DNA of 64,000 nucleotides from Bryum argenteum (lineage: Eukaryota > Streptophyta > Bryopsida > Bryales > Bryaceae): assembly GCA_037043015.1 (NCBI GenBank), contig CM073330.1, forward strand, positions 8,326,012-8,390,011, read 5' to 3'. Shown one piece after another: positions 17,600 through 63,135 of this stretch (the stretch's first letter is position 1; each line of letters opens with the position of its first letter). The position numbers and the translations under genes are program-made. The notes under the pieces were generated by a model that saw only the letters and a program-made list of their open reading frames with translations, searched no databases and was not told the DNA's origin.

Positions 17600-20359
17600 T
17601 CACCAAAATGTGTAATCGGCATGGATTGTAGGGTGGCTCCACCCTAACGTAGACCTTGAAGGGATTTCGGCGAATTTGCTCAAGAAGAAATCTCGGGGCA
17701 AATCTCGCTCGTAAAGGCGCCGTACCTCCATTGTCACCTCCGCCATTTCCGTCCCAGAGTTGCAACATGCACAGATGATCGCTCCTCCGTGCCGATCGTA
17801 GTGCAAGGCTCCGCAGCTGCCGACTGTGAGTGAGTGTAAGTGAGTGCGCACTTTCGTCTCTTTCTCTTCGCGCTCTTTGTGGACTGATTCTTTCCTTCGG
17901 AGTGTGCGCAAGTGGTGCGCAAGAGTTTCGCACAGCTCAGGTAAGCTGGCTTTGCTTCCTAGGGTTTCGTTGCAGAAGCATTTCGTGGAAGCATTTCGTG
18001 GATACGGAGTCGATTCGGTAGTGTCAGGTAGGATGTGCGTTTTTCTTAGTGTACGCGCACCGATTCGCCTATTTCTTAGCGGATGAGCACCGATTCTCTT
18101 CGTTCTTTGACGCTAGAGGTGAGAATCCTCCGTGCCGGTGATGATTGTTTTCGAATTCCGAATTGCAACGTTTTTGGCTTCGTGGATTCGAACGGATCCG
18201 TGCAATTCGTAGTGAATATGCGTGTTCTTGGTAGTTCTTTCGTGTTATGGTGGTTCCTTGGTGTTACGGTAGCGATTTCTACAACGGTTTGTTGTTGCTC
18301 AGGCTTGAATCGAAAGGATTCACTTATTTAAATTAGGTGTCATTTGACTTAGGTGAGCAGGAATTACGTGTCTTTCTTTTAGTGTATATCAGCAAGTACA
18401 CGAATGTGTCCTTCATTACGTTAGTTTTCATTGAATTGCCCTCGTTGTGCAGTAAGGCCTTCTGAAACGTGGTTGTCCTCTGAAACGTGGTTGTCCTGGT
18501 AATAGATGCGAGTTGTACTCAGTTTTCATTGCTTTTGTACTGAGGAGTACTCATTCAAGAGCTGGATACCGGAAGTTATTGGATACCCGTGTCAATCAAT
18601 CAACTAAGTGTACGTAATGTGAATGCAGATTAGTGATTCTACATGGAGCTGAAGGTGTTGGTGTCGAACAGACTACAGTGGTGGCATGATAATTGTCTTC
18701 AATTGTAGGTGGTGAATTTGGAAGCAGCTCCAACTCTGCTGTGGCTAGTAGTATCACAGGTACTTGCACACGATTTTTTGAATGAGGACATGGAAGTAAG
18801 GATGGTTTATGTTGCTTATTTTGTGAGAGAGTAGTAAGTTTATTAGATGATGCAGGTGGTTTGCAACACATTTCAAAGCCTTACCAGGCTACCTAAATAG
18901 CAGAGTTATGCAACATACTTAGTATGGTTGTAGACTACTCACACTGGTTATGACCAGTGTTTCTCTTTTTCTATTTTCTTCTGGAAGATCCATTTCAGTC
19001 TTTATACATCAAGTACATGTACCATCATGCCATTTTAGTAACAAAGACGCATTATGTTCATCAAATTAATGCTCAGTTTCATAAGGTTTTGTCCACTTTC
19101 TTATCCAACTTATATCCACATTTTATACATTCATCGTGGATTCATATATGGAATGGCTTGACTCGAAGGGTGAAGCATAATTCATTCGTATATGAAGTGT
19201 AGTCCTATATTAGGGAACCCTAGAAACCCTAATGGAACCCTAATAGAACCCTAAGAAACCTTAATAGAACCCTAAGAAACCTTAATAGAAACCTAAGAAG
19301 CCGTAAAGTAGAAACTGCCTCACGGTTGCTTATCGTATCTTTCCTCCTCTTTCCTCACATGGGGAGGAATTTTGGTTCATGATTTGTGGATTTTAATTAT
19401 GTTCCTTCCGTTTTATGAAGAGAGTTCAACTCAAGTTATTTCTCTAAGTTCTCTACAATGAATTTCATCCTTAAAGTATGGAGAACAAAGTATGAAGTAT
19501 TTGTTCACATATTCAAATAGCTGTTGATGATCATGGGAATATGATTCCCATGTAGAGTTGAGGCAGTGAAACAAACTTTATGACCAAATTGTAATGTGGA
19601 GTGTGGGGTTTGTAATTGAGGATGGTATAATCAATCATCTCTTAATTCTACAAGGCTTGTTGGAGTGAGGATGAACTTAAAATGTCTACTTACTAAGCTA
19701 CTTTGGTATGGGTGTGTTGGTTTGCTCAGAAACGAGGGCCTTTTTTGGGGAGTCCGATTGTGATTTTTAGTTGTGTTTAATGTGGTTTAAAGTATTGTAT
19801 TTAAAGGCATGTAGATTTTTAATATAGGGAGACTTTTGTGAATTTGAGATGTATGGAATCTTTTGAAGCACCTCTAAGTCATTGGAGATTTTCTAAATTG
19901 CGTGAAACCTCAAGAGAGGATTATAGTGAATTCTCCACAATATTGTGTTTCTTATGTAATGTAGTTGTAGTTAGGTTGTTGTAAATCATTGGGGACAAAA
20001 GTATGATCTCTTGTTATGTTTTGTTGTAGATCACAACCATACTAATATACAAATAGGTCTTAATCTTAGTGTTACTGAGTCTAGAATGTGAACTAAAGAG
20101 TTCATGTCTAACTTTGCCCTGATACTATTCTGGTGCAATTGCAAGGGTCTTGAATGCTTGATAAAAGCATAAGATCGGAAGTAACAGTGTCTTAAGACTA
20201 TGGTTATCGTTGTTGTAGAATGATCTTTGATTCATGAGTTTTGAAAGTGCTTGTGCAATACATCCTTGTACACGGGATCCAACGACTTGGACTTCAGTCA
20301 TGCTTCCACTGATGAAGTGATTGTTGTAAACAGGAAGTGAGACTGCGCATGTGGGCTCC
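17600..20359 (+). promoter_or_regulatory. Probable SUVH upstream and leader region, with a GC-richer tract at 17.6-18.4 kb
   Basis: A GC-richer tract with possible splice sites (for example CAGCTCAG before GTAAGC at 17941, and AGTGTCAG before GTAGGA near 18027) lies 2-2.5 kb upstream of the SUVH coding exon. Intronless plant SUVH genes often carry introns only in the 5' leader, so this may be the first non-coding exon (inference). Open frames here on both strands, including 17586-17933 minus, show no recognisable motif. The rest, to 20359, is AT-rich and includes a short array of AACCCTAAT-like repeats at 19210-19300. Confidence 0.35.
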
Positions 20360-22165
20360 ATGGAAACAAACAGACCGCTTGCTCATAGAGACTTTCCTCC
20401 GGGATGCCATCCTGCCCCATTGCATCCAGGGCGAATCCCGCAAGGGCCTCCGCAAGTGCTACAACAACAGCAGGGGGCAACTGTGACTCGTCGTAGAAGC
20501 AGATCTCCACGGCCCTTTAGTGAGGGTCGAATCCAGCGAATTCCATCCCTACCCAGGCCTTCAATAGATTCCGTTTGGAACTTCGTCATTGACCCCAATG
20601 ATACCCCCGAGGAGCTTTACCTCAAGAGACGAAAGCGGTATGCGGCCCTGTTGCGTTATTTTCAGCAAATGCATGAATGTGGCGAACTTTCGTCGGCCAG
20701 AGCACGACCTGATCAGGAAGCTGCGAAGAGGATGAATGATGACAAGCAAGCCTCAGACTGGAAAGGATTAGGGCATGTGCCTGGAAGTAGTGTGGGAGAC
20801 TTTTTCTATTACAGGTCTGAGCTTTTCATTTTGGGCATGCACCGTGCAACTCAAGCAGGGATTGCGTATTTAAATCAAAATGGGCAGAAGATTGGGTGCA
20901 GTGTTGTGGCTTCCGGCGGGTACGAAGACGACAAAGACGAAGGGGAGACTTTTTTTTACACTGGATGTGGTGGGAGTGATAAAGTCAGTAAACGGCAGGT
21001 GCGGGACCAGGTTCCAGAAGGAGGAAACCTTGCTCTCCAGAATAGCTGCTCCAGGAAGCAGCCTGTGCGTGTGATACGTGGTCATTCAGATATTGCCACA
21101 ATCCAGAGCCCTTCAAAGAAGGTATACTCGTACGATGGGCTGTACAACGTTGTACAAGAGAGCCTCCAACCGGGAAATGCAGGATACAAGGTTTTTCAGT
21201 TCAAGCTGGAGAGACTACCCAACCAGACCGAGTTGGGCTCGAGGTTGGTCTCTTTCGTGGGGAAGCTGAATAAGGCACCCGCAGAACGAACTGGGTTGTT
21301 GATTGCAGATATCTCTCATGGTCAGGAGCCTATTCCTGTTGGGGTGGTAAACACAGTGGACAACTCCAGCCTGCCATCGTCGTTTCAGTACACCACTAAG
21401 TTGATGTATGATAAAGGAATTGTTTTGCCAACTCGTCCGTCCTCGCAATGCACGTGCAATGAAGCTTTCAAATGCCACGATGTAAACCATAGTTGCTCGT
21501 GCATTGCAAGGAACACCGGTCGAGTGTTGCCCTACAATCAATACGGGCTGTTGATTCGCGCTGTCCCGGCTGTCTACGAGTGTGGTCGCCTCTGCAGGTG
21601 CCCCGACGACTGTCACAGCAGGGTGTGTCAGAAGGGGTTGCGGTATCGGCTTGAGATCTTCAAAACGGAGAACAAAGGCTGGGGGGTAAGGTCTTGGGAT
21701 TTTATACCTTCTGGTGGGTTTGTGTGCGAGTACACGGGCGAGGTAATGGATACAAAAACGGCCGATGAGCTTGACGATGACGAGTACCTCTTTAACCTGG
21801 ACATGAAGCAGGGTAACGAAGCACGTTGGGGAGATAAACTAACAGACGTCTTAACTGATGTGCCGGGGCCAGGTGCACTGGACACTAAGCCAAAGTATGT
21901 CATTGATGCCAGCAAATTTGGTGGTGTCGCAAGGTTTATCAACCACAGTTGTAAGCCTAACCTGTTTGTGCAGTGTGTCCTGTATGATAAGTGTGATCTT
22001 GATATCCCACACGTAATGCTCTTCGCTGGCCGTGATATTAGACCATTTCAGGAACTTACATACGACTACGGTTACGCTCTGGACTCGGTCTTCGATGCAA
22101 GTGGAAATCCCAAGCAGAGGGCTTGCTACTGTGATGCGCGCAACTGTCGGAAGAGGCTTTACTAG
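20360..22165 (+). CDS. SUVH-family histone H3K9 methyltransferase (SRA + pre-SET + SET + post-SET), intronless
   Basis: SUVH proteins bind methylated DNA through the SRA domain and methylate histone H3 lysine 9 in the nucleus. One exon of 601 aa starts at the ATG at 20360 (METNRPLAHRD). The N-terminus (1-70) is Pro/Arg-rich and disordered-looking. The SRA/YDG domain spans about 145-290, with SELFILGMHRATQAGI, VVASGGYEDD, GNLALQNS and VYSYDGLYNV. The pre-SET is Cys-rich at about 364-425 (CTCNEAFKC to CRCPDDCHSRVC). The SET domain follows, with NKGWGVRSWDF, GGFVCEYTGEV, RFINHSCKPNLFVQ (528-531 is NHSC) and ELTYDYGY. Post-SET is CYCDARNC near the C-terminus. All catalytic motifs are present, so the gene looks intact. 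It resembles the SUVH1/3-type intronless genes. Broken fragments of a closely related gene flank the large transposon downstream. Confidence 0.96.
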   Translation: METNRPLAHRDFPPGCHPAPLHPGRIPQGPPQVLQQQQGATVTRRRSRSPRPFSEGRIQRIPSLPRPSIDSVWNFVIDPNDTPEELYLKRRKRYAALLRYFQQMHECGELSSARARPDQEAAKRMNDDKQASDWKGLGHVPGSSVGDFFYYRSELFILGMHRATQAGIAYLNQNGQKIGCSVVASGGYEDDKDEGETFFYTGCGGSDKVSKRQVRDQVPEGGNLALQNSCSRKQPVRVIRGHSDIATIQSPSKKVYSYDGLYNVVQESLQPGNAGYKVFQFKLERLPNQTELGSRLVSFVGKLNKAPAERTGLLIADISHGQEPIPVGVVNTVDNSSLPSSFQYTTKLMYDKGIVLPTRPSSQCTCNEAFKCHDVNHSCSCIARNTGRVLPYNQYGLLIRAVPAVYECGRLCRCPDDCHSRVCQKGLRYRLEIFKTENKGWGVRSWDFIPSGGFVCEYTGEVMDTKTADELDDDEYLFNLDMKQGNEARWGDKLTDVLTDVPGPGALDTKPKYVIDASKFGGVARFINHSCKPNLFVQCVLYDKCDLDIPHVMLFAGRDIRPFQELTYDYGYALDSVFDASGNPKQRACYCDARNCRKRLY

Positions 22166-32606: not shown

Positions 32607-32648
32607 TTTTTGGACTTCATATCTCCTGATGGGTTTGTGTGCAAGAAT
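32607..32648 (+). pseudogene. SUVH SET-domain fragment, left half, cut by the transposon
   Basis: Reads LDFISPDGFVCKN, matching WDFIPSGGFVCEY of the intact SUVH gene (nucleotides 21697-21735) without gaps. The DNA match is strongest at TGGGTTTGTGTGC. It stops exactly where the transposon inverted repeat begins, and its last four bases are GAAT, the duplicated target. Alone it is a short match; with the right-hand fragment at 45412 onwards it is convincing. Confidence 0.65.
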
Positions 32649-32670
32649 GGGTGGAAGCACACTACGGTGG
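32649..32670 (+). repeat. Left terminal inverted repeat of the transposon
   Basis: 22 bases beginning GGGTGGAAGCAC, matching the reverse complement of 45390-45411 at 20 positions (differences at positions 13 and 17). The next seven bases inward still share TCA and TT. Confidence 0.85.
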
Positions 32671-33525
32671 ATCACTTAGTACGTCTTTTTTGATTTCTGC
32701 AGGGGGTCATAAACTTCAACGACCGGTTTATAAGTCCTCCAAATGCAAAAGTACTTGTTTCTTTGGCGACGATGGTGACAAACCCAATTAACAATATGAT
32801 TCTATTGTACTTCACCTCGAAAAACATAGGGAACAAACATATATTTGTACTATTTTGCCATTCAGAGAGTAGTTCATGGTCTGCTAAAAACCATCAAAAG
32901 TACAAAATTCATGTTGTTTAAGGGAGGGTAGTACAAATCAACACATTGATCGTGAAACTACATGTTTAAAGCCTTCAAATGCACACTTGATATGCTAAAT
33001 AACTTGCATCGATGATTGTGATTTTTCCAGTCAAAGGGCAAAAATTATTTTTGGGCATATTTCACTCAAAAATTATCCAAACTTTGATTTTTTTGGCTCA
33101 AACAGTGATGATTAGGGTATAGGGATGTGGGTAGCATGCTGCTTTAGTTGAATAACCAGTAGTTTTTGGTAAAAAGAGACCCCTTCCATAGTTGATCTAG
33201 TACAGAACGGTACCAAAAGTACCTTGCTTTTGCTGGGAAAGCGAATGCCGCCTCTCATAAAGGCTTCTGACAGCGCATGGCTGGTGTCAAATTCATTTAC
33301 GAGGCGTCATTTTTTCATGAGCTTTCCTGCATTCTGACAGGGCATGCAACTTAATTTCATTATCTTCATGGCGATGGCTATCGGCGGCTGTTTCTCTTCC
33401 TCCGAGGTAGTGAGGAACAATCGAAGGCAATCCGAGTGTGTGCATGCAATTCCTGCCGTTGAGGTGGTGCGAGATCCGTTGCGGTTGATCGAAGCTTGCT
33501 ACAAGACTGCGTGGAGTAGCAGACA
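32671..33525. promoter_or_regulatory. Left arm of the transposon, presumed transposase promoter
   Basis: 855 bp between the left terminal repeat and the transposase start. Several open frames on either strand at 33293-33839 overlap the start of the transposase exon in other frames and are not credible genes. No TATA assignment is attempted. Confidence 0.4.
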
Positions 33526-36500
33526 ATGGAGTTTGCGGCAAAATTGTGCAGAAGAACGTGTGTGTGCAAAGTTGACGCTGAAGAGATGGGGAACGAGCGA
33601 ATGGCACAGCGCCGTCTAGGGATTTCTCGTCCAGGACCCCAAGTCCGAGCAGCAACGGCTGCTGCAGCGGAAGCACGAAGATTGCTGCGCCTTGAAGGGG
33701 ATCGAATCCGGCACGCAAGGAGGCGGGCAAAACTTGCGGCTACGACAGAGGCTTTGCGTAGCATGCCTGAAGGTGATGGCTCCAATCGAATGACGGAGCG
33801 TTCATTGTCGAGGGTTTCTAACAAACTTGCCGACGCCATTAACAGAGAGCTGAGTTTCTGTCCAACCCTGGATTGTAGGCGTGTTGTTTTAGAAAAACTT
33901 ATGAATCACATCACCATTTGGCCACAACTGCCTGAATATTATCCTAGGCCGCCTGAGGCAAAATCGCAGTTTGTGTTTCTCGAAAGTTTTAGAACTGAGT
34001 TGCAGTCTGTGAAAACTGCCCATTCGAAAGTGTTTTTAGCTAGGAAAGGAGCTCTTCTGGACGCTGCTGTTAGCGAAGGTTGCGATGGTGCAAGGGCTCT
34101 CTCTCGTGTGTTACAGGTGCATCCACGGAACATTCGGACTGCTATGGGAAGGAGGGTCGGCGTTGATCCTGTGAACCAGTTTGCTCTTCTGGAGAGGAGT
34201 AAGCGCGTTGGATTGACCGAATATGTAAAAGAACAAGTTCGCTTGTGGTGGAATCAGAACACTCGAGTGAGCCCTAACAAAAAAGATGTCACTCGAAAGC
34301 GGATCGGGCCAAAGGAATATGCGGAGCATGCTACGCAGTACCTTGTCGACACTCAGGTGTGCATTCTATCATTTCTTGTGGACTTCTTGTTGTTGGTTTT
34401 TATCTGGTTGTTGACATAGTGTTTACAACCAGATGACTGTGTGGTGTGCTGCTTGCAGCCACTTTTACAATCATGCTTAAAGTGTTCCTCGTTTGTTCGG
34501 AAGTAGTTGTTTAGAGTCTCAGCTTTCAGAACAAAATGAATAACATGGGGTTTGTGTGTAATTAGTGCATGTTCATCGCTACTTTTGATCTGTGAAATGT
34601 GTTAGATATCAATTGGAGTCTCCATATCGAGTCATTAGGGTTCTGCAGTGATCCTTTGTAGCTTCAAATTGACGTAGAAGAATTCCAAGTGTTGTAAGTA
34701 GACATGCTGCGTATTAGGTATATAAGTGGGCTGCGAGGTCTCGTTACGGATAAGCTATCTGGATTTGATGTACAAATCACCCTGCACCACCATTTCTGCC
34801 GTGCGTTGCTAGGTAGGGATTCATGGTTTAGGGTCACACATCACTTGCAGTGCATGTCCTCTAAATTTGAGTCTTAAAATTTAGGGTAATAGATTGACAA
34901 CTGAAGCTTTAATGGTTTTTTTTGTTTTCATCTTCAGAGTAATTATGGTCATGTCGTCATATTTGTTCAGGTCTATGTTCATATACGATTGATACAGGTA
35001 TTAGAGTGTGAAATGTTGACTGTTTGCAAATGTTGTGATCACAATATTCTTTCGAAGTGTGGTTCAGGATTTGAAGTACATCTGATTAAATGAAATGTGA
35101 AACGTGAGTGGGCAAAAAGTGGTCAATTTACTTGTTGTCGTACAATCTGTACAAGAAATTGATTATGTGAGATGATGGATTTCGTAGGATACGTGTACTT
35201 TACTTAATGTTTTCATACTCGGTGATAGGGATACAAAAGTGTTGACAATGTAGTACTTTTATGTTCGTTGCCAGTAACTTACACTACCTATTAGCATTCA
35301 CTTGTTGTGGTTAAGTACATACCACCTGCTAAGTGGTACAATCTGGGTAAGGAAACTTCTCATGAGTATCATCAGTGGTAAGGCCTGAACAGCTTTTGGT
35401 GACAGTGGCTTCTAAGTACTTAGACTGCATCTCTTTTGTAGTAAGGCTTCTACACCTTTCGGTGACAGTGGCTTCTAAGTACTTAGACTGCATCTCTTTT
35501 GTAGTAAGGCTTCTACACCTTTCGGTGTTAGTGGCTTCTTAGTACTTAGATTGCATCGTGCGCATAGGGTGTTCTGGGTACTAGTACAAGTCATTATTCA
35601 TTCTACTTAAAGTGTTGAAATATCTGGCTAGAATAAGTACTTTTGGTGTGAAGTACATAGTTGAATATTGCTAATTTAGTTCAATGTACTGAATGTGATC
35701 TAGATGTGGTATAGGTACAAGATTATATACTTTTATTTGTACTTCTTTCTTGGGCAGTGAAAATTTTAGTTCAGAAAAGAATGTGCTTCACTTACTAATG
35801 GTTGGATGTGTTTTGGATTGGACAGACCCAACTATTTCTAAGTTTCAAGGAAGCCCATCCGGAGTGTCGCATCAGGCAAAGAGCGTTTGAATACTTAAAA
35901 CCGTGGTATATTAAGACCCTCAAAGATCAGAATACATGTTGTTGTGTCTATCACGTAGAGATGGACTTGTTGAAAACCGGGCTAAATTCTCTTAGGTCTG
36001 CTATGAAAGGTTTGCATTCATCTCAATCTTGTAATTGCATATGTGTTGTTTGTGGGGACGGTTTGGGGGATTGCAAGGCCCATTCTCATTCTTATGATCG
36101 ATTAACCATGTTGTGGACGGCATGTCTATGTCCGAAAGGCGATTTGGATAAATTCCATAGGTTGGACTGTTTAATGGGCCGTTGTGCTGACTGTGGGGTG
36201 AAAAAACTTGATTTCTGTCCACAAGAATTGGATACCAGTAGTGATCAAAAATTTAAGTGGAGGTGCTTCGATCATGTAACGTACGGGGTAGATGAAGCTA
36301 CGGGCCGGGACAAAAGAAGGATAGAGGAGGTTTACCGGGACACTTCGCCGGGTGAGTTTGTTGCTTATCTGAAGTCTAAAGTTGGAACATTCATAACACA
36401 CAACTTTGTAGCAAATTGGCAAGATGGCGCATGTCGAAAGATGGTAGAGAATGTACCACCAGGTGTATTAATATCTCATATTGACTTTGCTGAGAATTAC

Positions 36501-38242
36501 ACCTTTGCAATCCAGAATGAAATACAATCCATGCATTGGTATTCAACTGGTATCTCAATTCTGGTACACATAACCCTTTACAAGTTACCCCCTACAGAAA
36601 ATGGTGATGATGGGGGGTTGTATAAACATACACATTACTATATTTCTGATGATAAGAAACACGATAGCTTGTTTGTGCAACATTGCCTGCTTCTCCACTG
36701 GAATTGGATGTTAGCAGAAGGGATTCGGCCATCAGAGCATTGGGTGTACTCAGACGGGTGCGCTGCCCAGTTCAAGGGAGCTCGCGCTATGTACTTCGTA
36801 GCACGCTACCCTGGTTTGACAGGCTGTAAGATGATGTGGAACTTTTTTGGAAGTGGGCATGGCAAAGGTAATCTTATCTCTACCATCTTGAATCTGTATT
36901 GAGGTTGGCATTGTGTTTTCTCCATTTGAATAACTTAGTAAGTAGAAATTTAGTAAATTTGGAGTACTAACTTAATGAATGTTCAGAGACGTGTACATTA
37001 CGGGGAGATAGAATTGTAGGGCAGATGGTAGAGTGTTTTGCTGCGGTAGATTACTTCTACTTGTAGTGTAAATACTGGTTTAGTAATTGGTAGAATGTGG
37101 TGATAACCGAGTATGGTGAGTACATATAATGTATTCCTTGCGCAATTTTTATACAATTAATACTGTAAGTCTTGTATCATTGATTTGTTTTCTACATTAT
37201 ATTTTGGTACATTAGGTATTCTTGCTTAAAAATCTACCTCAATCGTGATGTGTGCTTCTATGAGAGTAGTAAGTAGTAGTAATTTATGTACTTTTCTTGT
37301 ATTCAGTGTACTGAAGTCATTGAAATTGGTCTGTTGATGACTAATTCACCAGGTGAATGGGACGGGGCAGGAGCTGTGGTTAAGAGGGCTCTTCGAACGC
37401 ATCAAATTCAGCATCCAGAGGATGAGATGACTAACGCTCAGCATTGTGTTGATTTTCTGAAGTCTAGATTCTCACAACGCCCTTTAAGTTCATACGAGCA
37501 GTCTAAGGAGGTCCCAGTAAACCGCGAGTTCTGGCACATTGGAGTAGACGATGTGGATAGATCTAACGGCTGGGATTGTAAAGGCATTCCAGGGTCCAGA
37601 GGATTCCATTCCATTTTAGGGTCATCTGAAATTGACCCTACCTTACTCATGGTTCGTGATCTCACATGTTTTTGTGCTCCTTGTATAAATCAGGACTGGG
37701 TCCATTGTGAGCAGCAAGCGTATGTTCCAATGTGGCGTATAGTCCGATTGAGGCCGAAGGCAGGACCTGTACAAGCACAGTTTGCTGCCGTAGAGGAAGA
37801 GCCAGAAATTCTAGCTCACGAGGGAGGCCATGGAGGACTTGGTGATATTGTGAAGCTTGGAGACAATTTTGTTATACTAGCAGAGGAGGGAAATGACGAA
37901 GGCGTTGAATTCTACATCCTACAGTGCACAAAGCCCAAGTTTCTGGTGGAGGAGGATTTTGATTGTCCTTGGGGTAGTGAGTTCACCAAGGGTGACTTTG
38001 CTATTCAAGGTACTTACTATCAGAAATACGGGAGGGCCTCTGATACGTATGTGTTGCTTGATAGAGGTGTTAAGGCTCACGTAGATGCTCACTTGGTTAG
38101 GCATTGCAAATTTGCAATGGTGTTAGCTTCCCACGTGGTTAGGGGAAATCAAGCTGTTTATAGGCTTGGCGTAGATGTGGAGGCAGTTATCAAAGAGCAG
38201 CTAAGAAATTGGTGGGCATCGGACCCAAACGCAGAGGACTGA
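33526..38242 (+). CDS. DDE-type transposase of unassigned superfamily, 3 exons, 920 aa
   Basis: Exons 33526-34356, 35826-36867 and 37353-38242 join in consistent phase through GT-AG introns of 1,469 and 485 bp. Residues 1-277 are basic, with an Ala/Arg-rich helix near 40-75 (likely DNA-binding). A Cys/His-rich part follows (about 315-425: CCC, CNCICVVC, CLC, CADC, FC). The catalytic-like core has HIDFAENY (Asp near 497), then VYSDGCAAQFKGARAMYFV (Asp near 587), then NFFGSGHGKGEWDGAGAVVK (Glu/Asp near 626-628, spanning intron 2). This DFxENY / SDG / GHGKGxxDGxG pattern also occurs in uncharacterised animal and plant transposon proteins (memory, not searched). The C-terminal 270 residues hold a second Cys-rich patch (FCAPC, HC) and a beta-rich GDIVKLGDNFVIL module that may be chromatin-reader-like (speculative). 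The role is presumably excision and integration of this element. Confidence 0.85.
35378..35558. repeat. 63-bp tandem repeat, three copies, in transposase intron 1
   Basis: Copies with GTGGCTTCTAAGTACTTAGA start 63 bases apart (35404, 35467, 35530); the last has TTAG changes. It lies wholly inside the 1,469-bp first intron. Confidence 0.85.
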
Positions 38243-39353
38243 GGTTCTGGCTTTGAGCCAACCTATTTAGATGTACTTCTCTGGTATTAAATGACAGAGT
38301 CTGGCTACGGTGGTAAATATTCATTTTTGAAGCTAACTCCACCAATGCATGACATATAGTGCTGATTACAGAGCCCCTTTTCATATGAATTTCGGAGGGT
38401 TCCATTTGATTTGAATGTGAGTGTCCCTTTTGGTTGAGTCTAAAGTGATCTGCAGTTCCTTTACGCACCCATCACTTATCATTGATGCTTACACTCAATG
38501 TACAAAATGAAATTCAGCCTTGTCAATGTACAGAATGAAATTCTGCCTTGTCACATCTGCAATGTAATTTGCATCATACACTAAGTGTAAAGGAAAACTA
38601 AACTTCTGTACAGTACATTGAATCGAAGTCTTCAGACTTATAGACTATGAATGAGCTTATACTTCTCGTAGTATAATTGAATGCAAATTTTTGGACCATA
38701 ACTCGCCCAACCTTACTTAGAGGTTATATCAAACTGCCGAATCCTACCCATGGAGAGGTAAAAGTCTATGTAAGGAACTCAGTTTAAGGAGCATTATTAA
38801 AACCACAAGCTTCTTATACTAAATGTGCAATGATATGCTTTTATTTCCCCTACTACAAAACAATCCAGTTTCTACTTTCTACTCGGTTCTGATAAAATAA
38901 GATACAAAAATACACTGCATAAGATACAAAACTACCCCGCATAAGATACAAAACTACCCTGCATAAGATACAAAACTACCCGGCATAAGATACTATACTA
39001 TCCTACATGAGATACAAAACTGCATAAGATACTAAACTACCCTACATAAGATACTAAACTACCCTACATAAGATACTAAACTACTCTACATAAGATACAA
39101 AACTATGCATATCGGGCCCTCTATTAACACAAAAGCTGCAAAACTACCGAGTTCCATTTTAGTCTTCACCTTATTTCACTAACTGTTCTCTGTATATTTT
39201 GACACTAACCAACTCGAGGACTACAAACTAACTATGTACAATCTGTAACCATATACTTTTCCAGCATTCGCCCTTGCTCATCTTCGGACACTTGGATTTG
39301 CTCGCAGCACCTCCATTAGCTCGCAGCACCTCCATTGGCTCGCAGCACCTCCA
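38243..39353. other. Intergenic space between the two convergent transposon genes
   Basis: Presumed 3' untranslated regions and terminators of both genes. The segment 38895-39105 is a tandem array (listed separately). Nothing else is recognised. Confidence 0.5.
38895..39105. repeat. 22-bp tandem array between the convergent genes
   Basis: Eight to nine copies of a 22-bp unit containing CATAAGATACAAAACTACCC, with some shortened and changed copies at the right side. It sits where transcripts of the two genes would meet. Confidence 0.85.
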
Positions 39354-39360
39354 TTAGCTC
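39300..39360. repeat. 19-bp tandem repeat at the end of the SET gene
   Basis: Three copies of CTCGCAGCACCTCCATTAG in tandem; the last overlaps the stop codon of the minus-strand SET gene at 39354. Confidence 0.8.
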
Positions 39361-42300
39361 TGTACCTTTCCTTTTCTTGACTTGCTGCCCAGCCATCTCC
39401 CTCTGCATAACAGGCTCCCACACGCACAAGACAACCCTCCAGATTCCTCCCAGAAAGATGTCCCGTAATCCTGGTACATAAAACCGCAACCACAAATAAA
39501 ATTCAACAAGTTACAAATAAGAAAAAAACCGCAACCACAAATAAGAATCAGCAAACAAATAAGAAACTTGCTGTGAAGGCCATCGATCCTTACCCAAGTT
39601 AACTCTTCAAGAGTGCAAATGTTCCTTTTTGCAAAAAAGGCGACATGGTAAATATGGAGGTCGGATTTCTCAATCTTCACTGGAAAATCAATCAGATTAG
39701 CATCTGAGCATCGGTGGTTCAAAAAGCGTCCCACATTTCCATAAGCTAACCCGTCAATACATAAAGCATTTGCATCAGACACGCCCGCTTCTGTCTTCCA
39801 ATCTGCATTCAAGTCTAAAGTGTAATCTCCATGGACATGTGACTTGTCATATCGCTTAAGAAGCTCTACGTTGTTGACCACCTCCCCTACATACTCAAAA
39901 AGAAATGTCCCTCGAGTGATTGACTCAAAGGTCCTAACCCCCCAGCCCCGTACCCCTGTCCAAAACACTCCGACCCTGACCTTCATACCTCGCTGGACGA
40001 CCCTATTTGGGCAGGACATATGACAACCACAAGTTGAATTGCACTCCCAAATAAATTTCCTAGGCACATGCCCCTCACACTGCTGTCTTCTACTCCCCGG
40101 TCTCCCACCACCTCCTGTGTAACACCCCTGCCGTCGTTCACAGAATACAAATTCTGGTTCCTTCTGCAAGACACAACGAACCCACATCAGCTTTTAAATA
40201 CACCTAAACCCCTACCTCTAAACCTTAACATGAAAGTAATTCAACGTACCTCATGCAACATGTGTTCAGCCAACCGACCGAATACTGAGTAGGCCAATTG
40301 ACCACCATTCTTAACTGCACATTCACAACTGTTTCTATCGAGAATACAACTTCTTGTACAACAAGTGCACCCCGCTTCCACACCTTTCCTTATAACCACT
40401 TCATTAGAGAGAATGTTTTGAGTTATGTATGTAAATGGAATCATGGGGCAATGGCCGTCCACAGGTCCAAATACTCGAACTTGATGTTGTTCTTTGCCTT
40501 TAGATAAATCCAAGCTATTCTCTATCCATGAAACCTGGGCACCCAAATAGAGAAAGGGTGAGACAATTGCTTACGGTAAAAGCCAGCATGTTATATTCAT
40601 AGTAGATAAATAGATAAGCAGCCTTATCTTACAAAATTGGAAAACTTGAAAACAGGGCTACCTATGCAACAAAATTGCTATCCTCATGCAAATAGCCAAA
40701 TACTAGAAGGCCAAGTCACCGTTTTACCCCTTTCTTTTTGGCTGCGGCCTTCGTTTCCACTTGCTTCTCGTTTGCTGAAGCAAGCGACATCATCTTCTTC
40801 GTCTTTTTCCTTGGACCTTCACGCCCTGCATTGTCAACCTCCATGGCCTGTACAGCGTCTTCCCTCAACACGTGTGCCCGTCGTGCTCCGCTCAGTCGGC
40901 GCGTGCCCTCAGCATCCACCTGCATCGGCTCACTCACATCAGGCAGTGAGCTCCGCGTTTTTCGGCCCTCCGCTGACTTAAGTGGAGAATTATCGTTAGC
41001 GTCGTCATCCTCCGTCGCTCCCCTTTGCCGACCTCGAGCTCCAGCACGCACCTTAACACAAAAATCTTGAGCAGCTTCTACGATATTCGCTTCACCTGCC
41101 GGAGTCATATTAGTATCCTCCATAGAATTGGAGACAAGAGGAGAAGACTGGCCATGCTCTAATGCCTCGACTGGGCATGCTGTTTGCATCTTCGGTGATG
41201 CTACAACTGCTTGGTTGTCCTCACTCAACTCGGGCAACGTCTGGTCATCCACTGTACTCGCCCCCGGCAACGTACGCCCATGTGCACCTTGGGCTTCTTC
41301 AACTTCTAACACTTGCAGTTCGTGGTTGATCACATCCGACATATCCTGGCGTCCATCAATGACATCCTCTTTGTTGCCCTCGTCGATTGCTTGAATCTCG
41401 TTCGTTGTAGTCTGAGATGGTTGTTGGATTGGCAGCGCACATGGTATTCCTCCCTCAACAGCAGACACTTTATGCACTGCAAGTGCTTGTTCTGGCCTCG
41501 ACCTCCCAGCTATGGCATCCTTTAGAGGTGATGGAATCCCCACCTTACTCGCCTTAGTGTCGGATGGACCCAGTGCTTTCTTCATGGCTGCTACGCTAAC
41601 TGTAGAAGAGCCTCTACCCTCGATAGGTGGTGGAGTCAACGATGAAGTACCCACTTTTTTGGATGCTGGTCCATACGGTTCGCCGGTGACAAGCTTTGAA
41701 CCCTGCACATGACCTGTTTAAGCCACCACATTAATTGAAAGAACTGAAACTTAAGTACCGCACAGAAAGCTAAGTATCTAATGTATAATGTGTAATATAA
41801 AAGCACTCCTACGCACCCCTGCTTTGGAATCAGAGTACAACACAGCATAAAGCATATACAAAAAGCAGATTAGTATTAGATTTGTACACAAGTAGCCAAA
41901 TATACTACATATCCTACTCCTAAAGCTCCATGCGGAGACATTCACACACACTAAGTACTGAGATATGGTTAACCTATGCAACTTTGTACATGTATTATAT
42001 CCATGTACTAAATATTACTCCTCTTTTTACTCTACCGTCGTCGTAGAAGTACTACTATTGGTTAATGTGTTTCTAATGTTTACATACTCGTTTTACACTT
42101 ACTAATTTGGATACTTCTAGGTACATAGTAAAGTATAGACACTACAAGCATTGCATCGACAAGTACTAAATGTTAAAAATACAGTAAGTGACCGAAGTTT
42201 TACACAACACCAGTACCTAAGTACCACAGGAGTTCCATTCTTTTACCTAAACTATACAACTGATACATCCAAGTACAGACACTACAAGCCATTGCGTCAA

Positions 42301-43977
42301 CAAGTACTAAATGTGAACAATACACTAAGTGTTCAAAGTTTCACACAACACCGAGTACCAAAGTACCACATGAGTTCCAGTCTTTTACATAAACTATAGA
42401 ACTGATACATTCATACAGTAAAATTCGTACCTGTGAGTAATGGTGTCTTGCCCTTCGGCTCTAATGGCACTTCCTCTATATGCGCCGGTACCTCTTGTAC
42501 ACAAGGTTGCTGACCCATCTCCTCAGGTACAGAACCCCAGCCAAAACTCAACCGCCACTCTCGCTTGGCTTCCCCCTCGCATTTTGGTTCAACGCATTTG
42601 TTCCCTTTGCTAAATACTACCACTGAGCACCATGGGTGGTATAAGTGCTGACAACTAGCCACAATAACATCAAAATCAGGAAATTCGTTTGCACACAATG
42701 AGCAATGCGTAATCAAAATGTAACTCTTGTCTAACTTCGACCTGTCGGTTTTGCATATGACATGGGCCAAGGCTGAATTCCCAACGGTCGGCTGCCACTC
42801 TGCAACCTCGACAATTCCTCGTTCAATGCTTGGAGCTGCCTTTGCTTGAGGGTGATACTGGACTCCAAGGACTGAAGCTCCTCCATCAAATTCTCGCGGT
42901 CACGCTTGGCGTCCCTCAACTTGGCTTCATGATCACCCTTCATCATCTCCAAAATACTCCGCTTTGCCTCGAGCATGTCAACATCGTCCGTGCCCACTTC
43001 TAAACTCGCTGTTACGGCCTCCAGCTGTCCCTCCAGTGAATTTACGAGTAACTCCATGCTCCTCGTCTCCTGGACAGAGATGTCACGCCTTGATTGGGTT
43101 GGTGCCAATAAAGCCCTTGCGTCGCTGATCTCTTTGGCGAGCACCTTTATCCTAGCGTTGAGGTGCGACACCCTCTCTCCTGTACATGAGTCCATGTCCT
43201 CTTCCATTCGTGATGGGATCCTCGATGCACATACCTCAGACTCTTGCTGCAGGATAACCACACAATGCAGTTAGTCAGTGCGAAGACTAAAGTAACCATA
43301 AAACAAATTCGTGAAAAAGAGGTGCTAAGTTTCCTTACCCGCCTTGACGATCCAGCAAACCGAAACCCTGTTGCACCGCCCTTCTCAAGCTTCACTTTCT
43401 TGAAGCCGTCGCGTGTCAATTCGACACCTTTCTGTTTGCAATGGAGCAACTTTGCTCTCTGCGAGTCCCACCTCCCACGCTGCGTATGGTTCGTTTCTTG
43501 ACCATATGCAGCCCAGTTCACTGTCCCCAAGCCCTCAGCATGCTCCAAAGCAATACCTTGTGCAAATTTTATCTTCAGAAAACTTGGCATCTGGTCTTTG
43601 TCGTGCTGGTAAACGATTGGGTGCACATGCTTCACCCTCGCCAATACTTCTTTGTTGGTGCAGTCCTGCCATTTGTACCCCGATCTGCCATCCTTCCTGC
43701 ATCGCCTCCCAAACAAACTGCCCACGAGCTCCTCCGGTACTTCACGATTTTTGAACCGGTGTGGGTTCCGGCCAGTACCTTCAAGTTGGAAATCTTGAAC
43801 AAAATCCTCATAGTGCAGCGCCACCGGTGGCTCCTTCAGCTTCGCCAAGGCACCGTCAATGTCATACAGGTCGAGCTCCTCATCTGAGTCCGATCCACCT
43901 TCGTCTTCCTTCACCCTCCCGACCTCCACCTCGCGATCTGCAGGAGACTTGTCTCCACCCTGTTTTCCTCGGCCCAT
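39354..43977 (-). CDS. SUVR1/2/4-class SET methyltransferase fused to coiled-coil and RING-like domains, 7 exons
   Basis: Exons by eye: 43977-43339, 43246-42859, 42772-42431, 41713-40728, 40534-40250, 40163-39594, 39470-39354; phases agree and give 1,108 aa. Order: acidic start and a novel domain (1-213; HYEDFVQDFQLEG, ARVKHVHPIVYQHDKDQMP); a long coiled coil (about 225-342); a RING-H2-like finger (CSLC from 366, CQHLYHPWC 383-391, CVEPKC 402-407); a charged, low-complexity linker with RKKTKK (about 457-785); Cys-rich pre-SET (CTCC to CGCHMSCPNRVVQRG); SET with RGWGVRTFES, LFEYVGEVVN, RFLNHRCSDANLID (NHRC 1029-1032) and ELTWDYG; post-SET CACGSLLC. NHRC-x-DAN and ELTWDY mark Arabidopsis SUVR1/2/4, nuclear H3K9 methyltransferases or relatives acting at transposons (family knowledge). 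The second intron is only 86 bp with a weak donor (GTATCA); without it a frameshift joins the coiled coil to the RING. Unlike SUVR4, no WIYLD domain is evident. Confidence 0.8.
42122..42420. repeat. 150-bp tandem duplication in an intron of the SET gene
   Basis: Two copies, offset by 150 bases, share GACACTACAAG, CAACAAGTACTAAATGT and TTTTACMTAAACTATA-type blocks. They fall in the intron between the RING exon and the linker exon (42430-41714). Confidence 0.75.
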
Positions 43978-45389
43978 GGTGGTGAACCCTAAACTCTACT
44001 AACAAACCACAGACGTAGTATGCACGAGAGAGGTAAGCTAGAACAAAAAGCATCAAACATGAGAGCTCACTTCAGTCTCCGGCAAACTACAGCATACAAA
44101 AGCAAAAGCAGGCAATGTGGAAATTTGAAACAAGTTCTTCAGCCTTGTAGCAGAAATGAGCACTGTAATTAATAGCCATTAAAGCTCTCCCAACAACTCT
44201 CAAGAAAGATGTCAATTCGAAGCCAGCGGCCTTTGGTCCTGTACTCTAAGTACTCAACGTGGAATCGACCGCAAATCGTGGAATCGACCGCAAATCGTAG
44301 GACAAATCATCACAAATATTTTCTAAGATTCACTCGTGTCTAATCTCTACCATCTAATCCTACTAATCCTACGTCTGTCCTACTTACAGTACCTCCCTAA
44401 ACAAGCAATCCCTACAAACTTCACAGCAAGAGCTCCAGTTCAGCAAAATGCAAAGTAGAAATCAAAGATGCAAAAGTACCTCAAATATACCTCAATGCGA
44501 TGGCCTCGAGAGTAGCTCCGCGCTCGCCTCGACAGTGGCTCCGCGCTCGCCTCGAGAGCTGCTCTGCGCACTTCGCAATTCTCCCGCCACGCCCCACGCC
44601 TCAAGCTGCTCCTGAGTATCAGCGGCATTCAAAATTTTCAAACTTCTAACCCTAACTATCTAGAGCAGCCGGTGGACTCTTTCCTCGTGGACGCACGGTA
44701 GCAAACCCCAACAATCAGACTTGCTGGAAGCGGGGAGAGCTCTCGCGTTTGCTCAACTAACCTGCGTACCCCACCTAACGCTGCATTGCAAACACCGTAC
44801 CTACAACCTTGATCAGCACTACAACGGCGCATTCAAAACTGCCCCCAAACACAACAATGCAACCCCAACGCTACTACGCACAAGTTCTTCTACACTGATG
44901 AACACTACAAGCTCTCTTTCTTCGCTGCAGCCTTGAACAAAGAACCAACCCTAAACCTCGTAAAAGCAATCGCTACGTACAAACCTAACCGAAAGACTTG
45001 CGCCCTTAACCTCCCTCCACAACAGCGTCACAGCTTCTGAGCTTCATGAGCACACACAGCAGAATGAGCATTCCAACGAACACCGAGCCGCCAGCGCCAG
45101 GTGCGAGAAGAAGACGACCGGTGATCACCGGTAGGGGGAGGTGCGACAACTGGTGATCACCGGTCAAGCTGTCAGACACAATGAAGGCCAGCCTCCATAT
45201 TAATTCCACCTCACCTGACCTCCCGCTCCCTAATCCGCGCACTGAAAGCTCTGCCAAGAAGCCCACTTCCCAATACAGTTTAAACAAATAAACTAATCCC
45301 CTTATACTCACAGTACCTCAAAAAATTGCCTCCAAAAATTCAGTTGACTTTTACTAGAAAAATTGTACAATGGGCTGTCCGAAACTGAG
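43978..45389. promoter_or_regulatory. Right arm of the transposon, presumed SET-gene promoter
   Basis: Upstream of the SET gene, reading on the minus strand. It contains short repeats: GTGGAATCGACCGCAAATC twice at 44261-44299, GTGGCTCCGCGCTCGCCTCG in about three diverged copies at 44510-44570, and TGGTGATCACCGGT-type blocks at 45119 and 45151. Open frames here have no recognisable motif. Such repeated blocks in the end regions of a transposon can be transposase-binding sites (inference). Confidence 0.4.
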
Positions 45390-45411
45390 CCACCCTAGCG
45401 TGCTTCCACCC
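45390..45411 (-). repeat. Right terminal inverted repeat of the transposon
   Basis: 22 bases ending CGTGCTTCCACCC; see the left repeat. The following GAAT (45412-45415) equals the four bases before the left repeat. Confidence 0.85.
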
Positions 45412-45632
45412 GAATGTGAATAAGGTTGTTACCTCAATTCCATTAAAATGGCGGTATTTCATATGTCATTTTGCCAAATCCCCTATGAGCCATTTTGCTC
45501 GCATTCTTAAGCATGCCATTTTACAAGCATTTTATCAAAAACGATTGTAAGCCTAACATGTTTGTATTGTGTGTTTTGTATGATGAACTTGAGGTTGATA
45601 TCGTGGATGCAAATGGGAATTCCATGCAAAAC
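45412..45632 (+). pseudogene. SUVH SET-domain fragment, right half
   Basis: From 45412 the sequence GAATGTGAATAAGGTTGTT could continue the left fragment (FVCKN then VNKVV against FVCEYTGEVM), weakly. After a family C element piece (about 45430-45530) the match is strong: NDCKPNMFVLCVLYDELEVDI against NHSCKPNLFVQCVLYDKCDLDI of the intact gene. It then jumps to DANGNSMQ against DASGNPKQ, so the segment with the ELTYDYGY motif is deleted. It ends at the TTAA of the next MITE. The gene is non-functional. Confidence 0.75.
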
Positions 45633-56397: not shown

Positions 56398-56920
56398 AAC
56401 CTCAATTATGTTAAAATAGCCGTATTCCATGTGCCATTTTGCCAATCCCCTATGAGCCATTTTGCTTGCATTCTAAAACATGCCATTTTGCCAAATCCCC
56501 TATGAGCCATTTTGCTTGCATTCTAAAACATGCCCTTTTGCCAAATCCCCTATGAGCCATTTTGCTTGCATTCTAATATGTGCCATTTTTACAAGCATAT
56601 TTCCGAAGTGAAGTTCAGAAGTATTTATGCCTGGAAAATGCCATGTTCATTAATATCACACATGTACTCCGTAATATCATGTATTTCTAAGAAAACACCA
56701 AAATTTTCATAATATCACACTTTTTTATGATTTTTGACCTTCGAACATACTAAAAGGGCAATAGTTCTGAACGGCCGTTCAAAAACATTGTTGCTTTTAA
56801 AATGTGGTTAGAAATATTTACCCTATGATGTCAAAACTCTTCCAACGTTAATTTGTCATTTTAAGCACCCAAAAAGCATCATTTTCTCGGAATAACACCA
56901 TTTTTACAGAATTGAGCTTT
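56398..56920. mobile_element. Family C MITE with internal triplication
   Basis: Left AACCTCAATTATGTTAAAAT, right near-complement ending AATTGAGCTT, with TATAA just outside on both sides. The segment containing AAATCCCCTATGAGCCATTT is present three times in tandem (about 56440-56580, unit about 60 bp). Confidence 0.7.
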
Positions 56921-62700: not shown

Positions 62701-63015
62701 ATCTCCTATACACTATTTATTTGTTTCCATTTTCATGTACCATATTCCTTGTCCCTTCGCCTTCTTTTTATATTAAAAGGATCTAATAAACTTGTAATAA
62801 ATATAAAATAGCACTTACGAGAACTCTTCAAAATCTTTAGAACTCTTCATGAATGCGGTATATATAGCCAAGGTCCGTTTAGCTTTTTTTGCCACCTTTT
62901 TTCAAATGCTTTTTGGTAAGTTTAGGCTCTTAGAGGGGCTACGGGCTCTCTAAATCTCTAATGGGCTTGTAAATTAACAAATATCTACAAAAACGTATTC
63001 TATTATTAATAGTAT

Positions 63016-63135
<120 letters not shown>

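Follow-up and report, generated by a model that had tools for sequence, protein, structure and literature searches.

Does a DNA transposon of the plant Bryum argenteum carry a histone methyltransferase gene of its own and, if so, what might the enzyme do for the element? The question is raised by positions 32649-45411 of a 64,000-nucleotide stretch of contig CM073330.1 (the window). The element occupying these positions is real: it is flanked on both sides by GAAT, an exact 4-bp target-site duplication, its inverted ends (32649-32670 versus 45390-45411) agree at 20 of their 22 positions, with 29-nt arms that are 86% identical, and between them lie two convergent multi-exon genes, modelled from the sequence with GT-AG introns. 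Ends, duplication and gene pair had all been described in the first-pass annotation of this DNA and were reproduced here. A chance origin of the ends is excluded by an expectation of 0.01 occurrences of the end pattern per shuffled window. The features of this copy, as modelled, are the following.

32645..32648, no strand: target-site duplication, left copy GAAT
32649..32677, plus strand: left terminal inverted repeat, 22-nt core 32649-32670
33586..34356, plus strand: transposase exon 1, putative start codon; frame open from 33520
35826..36867, plus strand: transposase exon 2, carrying invariant Asp at exon residues 220 and 310
37353..38242, plus strand: transposase exon 3, starting with invariant (G)EWDGAG
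39354..39470, minus strand: SET gene exon 6, DYG and post-SET cysteines
39594..40163, minus strand: SET gene exon 5, last part of pre-SET, then SET domain; EELTW at the exon end
40250..40534, minus strand: SET gene exon 4, pre-SET
40728..41713, minus strand: SET gene exon 3, fast-evolving linker; acceptor 41713 in frame with the RING-like part
42431..43246, minus strand: SET gene exon 2, coiled-coil-like stretch followed by RING-like finger; frameshift in the window copy
43339..43977, minus strand: SET gene exon 1, family-specific N-terminal region without a confident Pfam match
45383..45411, minus strand: right terminal inverted repeat, 22-nt core 45390-45411
45412..45415, no strand: target-site duplication, right copy GAAT

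The plus-strand gene had been regarded as encoding a DDE-like transposase. An invariant D-89-D-38-E (or D-40-D) arrangement across 7 and 6 aligned rows may point that way, but searches against Pfam, NCBIfam (exon 2 only) and PDB sequences returned no match. A pattern search for relatives gave 103 matches in viral contigs and 45 in prokaryote genomes, none of which was confirmed. A 4-bp duplication is characteristic of the Sola superfamily, and the duplications of Academ elements are 3-4 bp long. The value given for Academ in an excerpt of PMC5199201 is 3 bp; the present element, with 4 bp, was compared with Academ by this length only.

The predicted product of the minus-strand gene is a protein of the KMT1 (SUV39) type, combining pre-SET, SET and post-SET regions with catalytic motifs. 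Pfam recognizes the pre-SET (E=8e-12) and SET (E=5.8e-15) domains above its cut-off, and the best match among PDB sequences is EHMT2/G9a (E=5.4e-38), the best plant chain being SUVH6 (E=6.1e-36). The motifs NHRC, EELTW-DYG and CxCxxxxC are present in the window copy and in copy C11a, with variants in other copies. A more specific assignment, to the SUVR1/2/4 class, had been proposed, and SUVR-type SET motifs are NHRC.DAN, ADW and ELTWDYG. Descent from this class is suggested by ADW and NHR, which the element SET has in common with an exon of the WIYLD-type (SUVR1/2/4-like) gene of the same genome (SUVH has NHS and EHMT2 NHL), and by one intron position common to the WIYLD gene and one element clade. 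On the other hand, the WIYLD domain is absent from the Pfam matches of the element exons scanned, and the element SET is 37-48% identical to the WIYLD gene, which does not stand out from its 38-46% identity to EHMT2. A tree of about 90 SET residues does not group the WIYLD gene with the element SETs either: the gene joins SUVH and EHMT2 (support 51), and most deep nodes have support below 65. The SRA domain, a mark of the SUVH class, is absent from the element exons; one was found in a separate gene of the window, at 20330-22165.

Upstream of the SET region, exon 2 appears by eye to encode a coiled-coil-like stretch. The RING-like finger reported to follow it retains its Cys/His pattern in 9 of the 11 exon-bearing copies (C8a and C4a differ by one residue each), whereas none of its Pfam matches, the best of which has E=0.011, reaches the curated cut-off. 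No known DNA-binding domain was found in exon 1; a match to Myb_DNA-bind_8 (E=0.024) came from a single row out of eight. The earlier statement that the frames stay open across all exons does not hold for the window copy: its exon 2 lacks one base relative to C5a, C9a and C11a, where the exon is open throughout, and its starting frame contains six stops, beginning after 171 codons. Because of this frameshift, the window copy is not expected to yield a full-length SET protein; it is one damaged member of a large transposon family.

The extent of this family is apparent from the 258.8-Mb genome, in which ends with at most three mismatches occur 512 times (4 times for the reversed control) and the end pattern is matched 74 times (control 0). 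Fourteen long copies were seen, and all 11 examined at both ends have exact 4-bp duplications, each different; the inward end pairs C3, C5 and C7 (31 to 84 kb apart) were left out, and the duplication of C6, CCCC, lies inside a run of C and is hence weak. Exact 4-bp duplications also flank eight of ten short inward end pairs, the exceptions being L027 and L037. Related unoccupied sites, gapless at the junction, were identified for one SET-bearing copy (C8c) and two short ones (L003 and L005), that of L005 having three of the four duplication bases. The joined flanks of C6 align to L032 across the junction, but with a gap there, and this candidate was rejected as a precise empty site. With terminal inverted repeats on many copies, a duplication of constant length and empty sites, the family is a class II (TIR) transposon of the cut-and-paste type that has been mobile in the past and has reached a large copy number. 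The first-pass annotation had proposed looking for many copies with the same ends, both genes and 4-bp duplications, together with empty sites, and these were largely found. The exception is the empty site of the window copy itself, for which none was found: the left flank is unmatched elsewhere (40 of 264 candidates scored), and the right flank, from about 15 bp off the junction, is part of a dispersed repeat.

The position of the SET gene in other copies strongly supports the view that it is a gene of the element itself. Among the matches listed, a SET exon lies within 15 kb at 93 of the 117 transposase loci, and all 93 pairs are convergent; random placement, with approximate lengths for contigs C2 and C3, gave a mean of 2.35 pairs and a maximum of 8 in 1000 runs. 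Of the 143 merged loci of SET gene exon 1 among the matches listed, 98 have a SET match no more than 20 kb away, in 97 of these 98 on the same strand and with SET downstream. All these counts are lower bounds, and absences carry little weight, the candidates scored being 150 of 336 for SET, 117 of 413 for the transposase, 150 of 271 for exon 1 and 150 of 270 for a second SET search. The first SET search yielded 158 matches, of which 150 were used; second-search matches that were left out overlap, by reading, loci already included. No SET match was listed in either SET search at 24 of the 117 transposase loci. Conversely, 37 of 165 merged SET loci among the matches listed occur without the other genes of the element. 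A SET gene found as an ordinary host gene without the ends had been named beforehand as an argument against the element's ownership; this outcome was not obtained, as the lone loci do not explain 93 convergent pairs out of 93. One of the 37 adjoins the sole match to a WIYLD-type gene (C2:8745808), 1.5 Mb from any listed element gene.

The association also appears to be long-standing. In 15 between-subfamily pairs (at least 265 codons, the decayed copy C5a left out), pN of the SET exons is 0.25-0.37 versus a pS of 0.71-0.83, i.e. synonymous sites are saturated and the SET exons conserved. When the element was compared with six copies from other subfamilies, exons and ends, which constitute 48% of its length, held 87-99% of the DNA that could be aligned; at the DNA level, no alignment was obtained for the SET exons of C6. 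The unrooted trees of the transposase and of SET share the topology A, C10d, ((C6,C9b),C8c), with supports of 99-100 for shared groups, C9b being represented in the SET tree by 80 codons only. The identities of the two genes to the window copy are correlated (Spearman 0.58 for 74 pairs; 0.49 for 69 pairs, subfamily A excluded), and the convergent layout persists with transposases down to 53-54% identity. At the level of sequence, these comparisons demonstrate purifying selection on both genes between subfamilies, with conserved SET motifs. Within subfamily A, dN/dS is 0.39-0.72 for SET and reaches 0.56-0.95 for exon 1 in pairs with C4a, which indicates that many copies are decaying; a hand count of the first 76 SET rows among the matches listed gave 49 stop-free and 27 stop-carrying ones.

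Subfamily B lacks the SET exons, yet its copies are 97.7% alike. Neither SET exon 5 nor exon 6 had a match in four of its copies, whereas exon 1 and the RING-like part are kept, and exon 1 has a dN/dS of 0.07-0.16 in five of six pairs. Since SET-less copies are this similar, SET is not strictly needed for movement. The retention of exon 1 and the RING-like part after loss of SET suggests that the front half may provide a core accessory function, on which SET would be superimposed as a regulatory layer.

What, then, might the methyltransferase do? Its most likely function, as far as the sequences allow, would be H3K9 methylation of the element's own chromatin, and we moderately favour the view that this is a DNA transposon family in which a transposase and a convergent KMT1-type, probably SUVR-derived, methyltransferase together make up an element that writes its own H3K9 chromatin. 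The second protein would be recruited to the DNA or chromatin of the element through its N-terminal region and/or the transposase, and may oligomerise; methylation of H3K9 there would set the chromatin state of the element, which could limit or time its expression or shape where and when it moves. H3K9 activity of the protein is not assured, because SUVR1 and SUVR2 show none in vitro and SUVR4 does, according to an excerpt of PMC7218100. More tentatively, a clade of plant transposons may long have carried an H3K9 methyltransferase from the host toolkit as a strategy of self-tuned silencing, with the SET-less subfamily as a natural control.

Two-gene plant transposons are known, En/Spm and MuDR being examples, and the second protein could instead be an accessory or targeting factor that assembles the transposase or steers integration to chromatin, SET serving mainly as a chromatin-binding module. 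The convergent layout kept at great transposase divergence and the front half retained by subfamily B would both fit; we nevertheless deem this rather unlikely, given that the SET-bearing subfamilies have largely retained the catalytic and zinc-binding motifs, beyond what a binding module needs. The same conservation speaks against a protein that competes with or titrates host SUVR as a dominant-negative or decoy and so relieves silencing, in a manner comparable to VANC in effect, not in kind: a decoy would not need conserved catalytic motifs. Such interference, which we hold to be unlikelier still, would agree with a SUVR-like SET accompanied by a coiled-coil-like stretch and a RING-like finger in many copies, and with the single WIYLD-type gene found in the genome. 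Anti-silencing proteins of plant transposons do exist, as described in an excerpt of PMC5735166.

A passenger gene, captured once by an ancestor and carried along without function, might account for the many broken copies, including that of the window, and for the multiplication of subfamily B after SET loss. It is strongly disfavoured, and we reject it, on the purifying selection across saturated between-subfamily divergence, the invariably convergent pairing and the congruent trees. The notion that two ordinary, unrelated host genes happen to lie between inverted repeats has hardly any probability left; the host, too, has SET genes, but the arrangement recurs in long copies with exact duplications and in 93 convergent pairs, where about two would be expected at random.

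How novel is such an element? SET-carrying HarbingerS and MuDR families of Phytophthora were reportedly described by Kojima and Jurka in Repbase Reports in 2014. The first-pass annotation had known of no plant transposon family with such a gene pair, which agrees with the literature searched as far as plants are concerned, no earlier report of a plant DNA transposon with a SET gene having been found, but SET-carrying DNA transposons are known from oomycetes, namely the Phytophthora families cited in PMC12730594. As far as the description in excerpts of that citing paper goes, these share with the Bryum element a SET histone methyltransferase gene of their own, and they differ in their oomycete hosts and in belonging to other transposase superfamilies; the Bryum element is set apart by its plant host, 4-bp duplications and a SUVR-like SET with a coiled-coil-like stretch and a RING-like finger. 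In the brown alga Ectocarpus, the DNA transposon Sola1-1_Ec32 is likewise large and has an accessory gene for an epigenetic writer, encoded on the other strand from its transposase. The writer is a ParB/DNA-methyltransferase rather than a SET histone methyltransferase, and the authors of the study suggest that proteins of this sort may bind to the transposon that encodes them and modify it (PMC12477816, in excerpt). Fungal transposons with TET/JBP dioxygenases, from several DNA transposon lineages, also carry an enzyme acting on epigenetic marks; according to the excerpts of PMC12730594, this enzyme acts on DNA 5-methylcytosine and is proposed to aid escape from silencing, in contrast to the histone methyltransferase of the Bryum element, which is of a type that usually represses. 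SETMAR is a SET methyltransferase tied to transposon biology that acts at transposon ends, but it is a domesticated single-copy fusion gene of primates, whereas the SET gene of the Bryum element moves. To our knowledge, VANC of the Arabidopsis transposon VANDAL21 has no SET domain. It resembles the present protein as the product of a plant DNA transposon that alters the epigenetic state of its own family and differs in stripping DNA methylation throughout its targets (PMC5735166, in excerpt).

The presence of SET-bearing and SET-less subfamilies in one genome makes the benefit of self-written marks directly testable. H3K9 methylation is usually viewed as an action of the host on transposons; here, a transposon family carries a predicted H3K9-type methyltransferase beside its transposase at no fewer than 93 places, conserved between subfamilies. 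The apparent number of SUVR genes in a plant may in part reflect genes of transposons.

The element in the window (12,763 bp; positions 32649–45411, contig C10) belongs to a mobile transposon family. As the first-pass annotation had described, its terminal inverted repeats are identical at 20 of 22 positions and it is flanked by GAAT on the left and on the right; identity is 86% over 29-nt arms. In the genome searched (258.8 Mb, 25 contigs), a degenerate 22-mer of the end has 74 matches (none in the control), rising to 512 (four in the control) when up to three mismatches are allowed, and 14 inward-facing pairs of ends lie less than 100 kb apart among the matches listed. Eleven long copies from these pairs, C6 and C8c among them, were inspected at both ends, and all 11 have exact 4-bp target duplications, all different, the one of C6 (CCCC) being weak as it sits within a C run. 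The anticipated multitude of copies with the same ends and duplications is thus real. Exact duplications also occur in eight of the ten short inward pairs (up to five mismatches, 0.56–2.2 kb) among the loci scanned, a matching 4-bp duplication being absent from the other two (L027 and L037). Empty sites, likewise anticipated, were recovered for the SET-bearing copy C8c and the short copies L003 and L005, but the junction of the window copy gave none, its left flank matching nowhere else among the 40 of 264 candidates scored. The joined flanks of the three align gap-free over the junction to related sequence (75–76% identity), with the duplication single at the sites of C8c and L003 and three of its four bases present at that of L005. 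Window positions 62843–62566 resemble the unoccupied target of C8c.

Between its ends, the window copy carries two convergent multi-exon genes, their exon structures read from the DNA sequence. The plus-strand transposase gene has three predicted exons with open frames and encodes 900 aa from the predicted start. The minus-strand SET gene (gene 2) has six predicted exons, encoding, in this order, an N-terminal region, a coiled-coil-like stretch (judged by eye) and a RING-like finger, a long linker, pre-SET, SET and post-SET; EELTW-DYG is formed by splicing exons 5 and 6. The gene pair stands as first annotated, but the assertion that frames are open across all exons has to be withdrawn for the SET gene: its exon 2 lacks one base relative to three sister copies (C5a, C9a and C11a), where it is fully open, and runs in its starting frame into a stop after 171 codons, ahead of the regions for the RING-like finger and SET. 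This marks the window copy as damaged. Its DNA divergence from the sisters is about 9%, and that among the sisters themselves 3–5%. Where the 3' ends of the two genes face each other, a 22-bp unit occurs in 9.7 successive copies (38897–39105), possibly a binding array or terminator region.

The SET gene belongs to the element. Transposase and SET exons are both present in seven of the 11 long copies (the window copy, C4a, C5a, C9a, C11a, C6 and C8c). Genome matches number at least 117 for transposase exon 2, at least 152 for gene-2 exon 1 and 158 for SET exon 5 (150 of them listed, a lower bound). Among the matches listed, a SET locus lies within 15 kb of 93 of the 117 transposase loci, convergent in all 93 cases and with a median gap of 2,336 bp, versus a mean of 2.35 pairs and a maximum of eight in 1000 runs of random placement, so the proposed association of the two genes in many copies holds. 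This count draws on an additional SET query, taken from a deep clade (L041); the first query alone pairs 83 of the 117, with exon 1 nearby in 64 of those. The 24 loci with no SET match include four copies of one subfamily, termed B here, and a similar locus at C3:26890767, and the rest include diverged loci, where a SET match may have gone undetected. Some SET loci stand apart from the element's other genes: of the 165 merged SET loci listed, 37 have neither a transposase nor an exon-1 match nearby, 128 have one or the other, and for 94 a transposase match lies within 15 kb. A few SET exons forming a small group (L042 at C1:28397230–28397800, C10:13369522, C10:8987997, C1:3407549 and C1:38247777), 35–41% identical to the element SET queries and with no transposase or exon-1 match nearby among the matches listed, represents either host genes or another mobile family.

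Substitution patterns in the predicted coding regions show selection on both genes. Between subfamilies, SET gives pN of 0.25–0.37 and pS of 0.71–0.83 (15 pairs with at least 265 SET codons, the stop-ridden C5a left out), and the transposase of the window copy gives pN of 0.20–0.33 and pS of 0.79–0.88 against other subfamilies. The predicted proteins of the family show conserved SET motifs, and constraint is local to the domains, since the exon-3 linker is merely 21–34% identical between subfamilies. The element DNA alignable to six copies of other subfamilies amounts to 1.5–3.8 kb, 87–99% of it exons or ends, which form 48% of the element; it includes SET exons for C10d, C8c and C9b, and none for C6. 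Unrooted trees of the transposase (13 copies) and SET (nine copies) are concordant, with the topology A, C10d, ((C6,C9b),C8c), where A is the SET-bearing subfamily that includes C4a. Transposase and SET identities to the window copy have a Spearman coefficient of 0.58 (74 pairs), or 0.49 without subfamily A (69 pairs). Within subfamily A, the dN/dS of SET is 0.39–0.72, a range to be expected should many copies decay once inserted.

Four of the 11 long copies, constituting subfamily B, contain the transposase together with the front half of gene 2:

C1a, loci L009-L010
C4b, loci L013-L014
C8a, loci L017-L018
C8b, loci L019-L020

They retain gene-2 exon 1 and the RING-like finger, and no match to SET exons 5 and 6 was found in any of the four; two of them are 97.7% alike. 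A weak exon-4 match in C8b and a short pre-SET-like stretch suggest a remnant of the SET part, and the position of subfamily B between SET-bearing groups in the unrooted transposase tree (support 91) argues for a loss of SET. Exon 1 itself is under strong selection even without SET, its dN/dS being 0.07–0.16 in five of six subfamily-B pairs (0.76 for C1a–C4b) and 0.06–0.12 in five of six subfamily-A pairs without C4a (the sixth having a dS of 0); pairs including C4a give 0.56–0.95.

The SET protein had been assigned to the SUVR1/2/4 class, and this SUVR-type reading of its motifs leans on what we take to be the Arabidopsis SUVR signature. A search of the genome for WIYLD, the N-terminal domain of that class, gave one match (C2:8745808–8745891), with a same-strand SET exon (L043) lying 2.3 kb downstream and the nearest transposase or exon-1 match listed 1.5 Mb away; we read this predicted gene as the host's SUVR1/2/4-type gene. 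ADW and NHR are common to L043 and the element proteins; in place of NHR, SUVH shows NHS and EHMT2 shows NHL. The L043 exon stops at NHR, an intron position found also in element clade E (L041) and the L042 group and missing from subfamily A. These shared features suggest descent from that class, but the identities are not distinctive: over an 89-residue segment, the WIYLD gene is 37–48% identical to element SETs, 38% to the window SUVH and 43% to EHMT2. Because of this overlap, and because the SET tree from the same segment lacks resolution at depth, SUVR descent of the element SET is likely but not settled. A PDB sequence search with the element SET returned EHMT2 as the best hit (E=5.4e-38) and SUVH6 as the best plant chain (E=6.1e-36). 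Our main claim is independent of SUVR descent. The window also has, at a distance of about 10 kb from the element, an intron-free open frame of 611 aa of the SUVH type (20330–22165, plus strand; SRA, pre-SET and SET). Given what is generally known of the two families, we take this SRA-SET gene and the genome's WIYLD domain as signs that the host is a green plant.

As for function, our first choice is that the element may regulate its own chromatin, on which the second protein would act. Since selection on exon 1 persists without SET, targeting or cooperation with the transposase would be placed in the exon-1 part and chromatin writing in the SET part. An accessory or targeting role for the second protein is our second choice, and interference with the host the third. 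Subfamily B offers a natural comparison for SET function. The open-licence literature, searched mostly as titles and abstract openings and with Repbase outside its scope, yielded no case of a SUVR gene in a plant transposon. VANC shows that a transposon protein in plants is able to alter the epigenetic state of its own family (PMC5735166). Among the class itself, SUVR4 is active on H3K9me1 in vitro, and for SUVR1 and SUVR2 no activity was seen (PMC7218100).

The right flank of the element sits in a dispersed repeat (window 45431–45533 and 56399–56601, and at least 38 other places), which is also tandem at 56432–56589. Window positions 63018–63131 are an uninterrupted tract of the dinucleotide AT, 57 units long.
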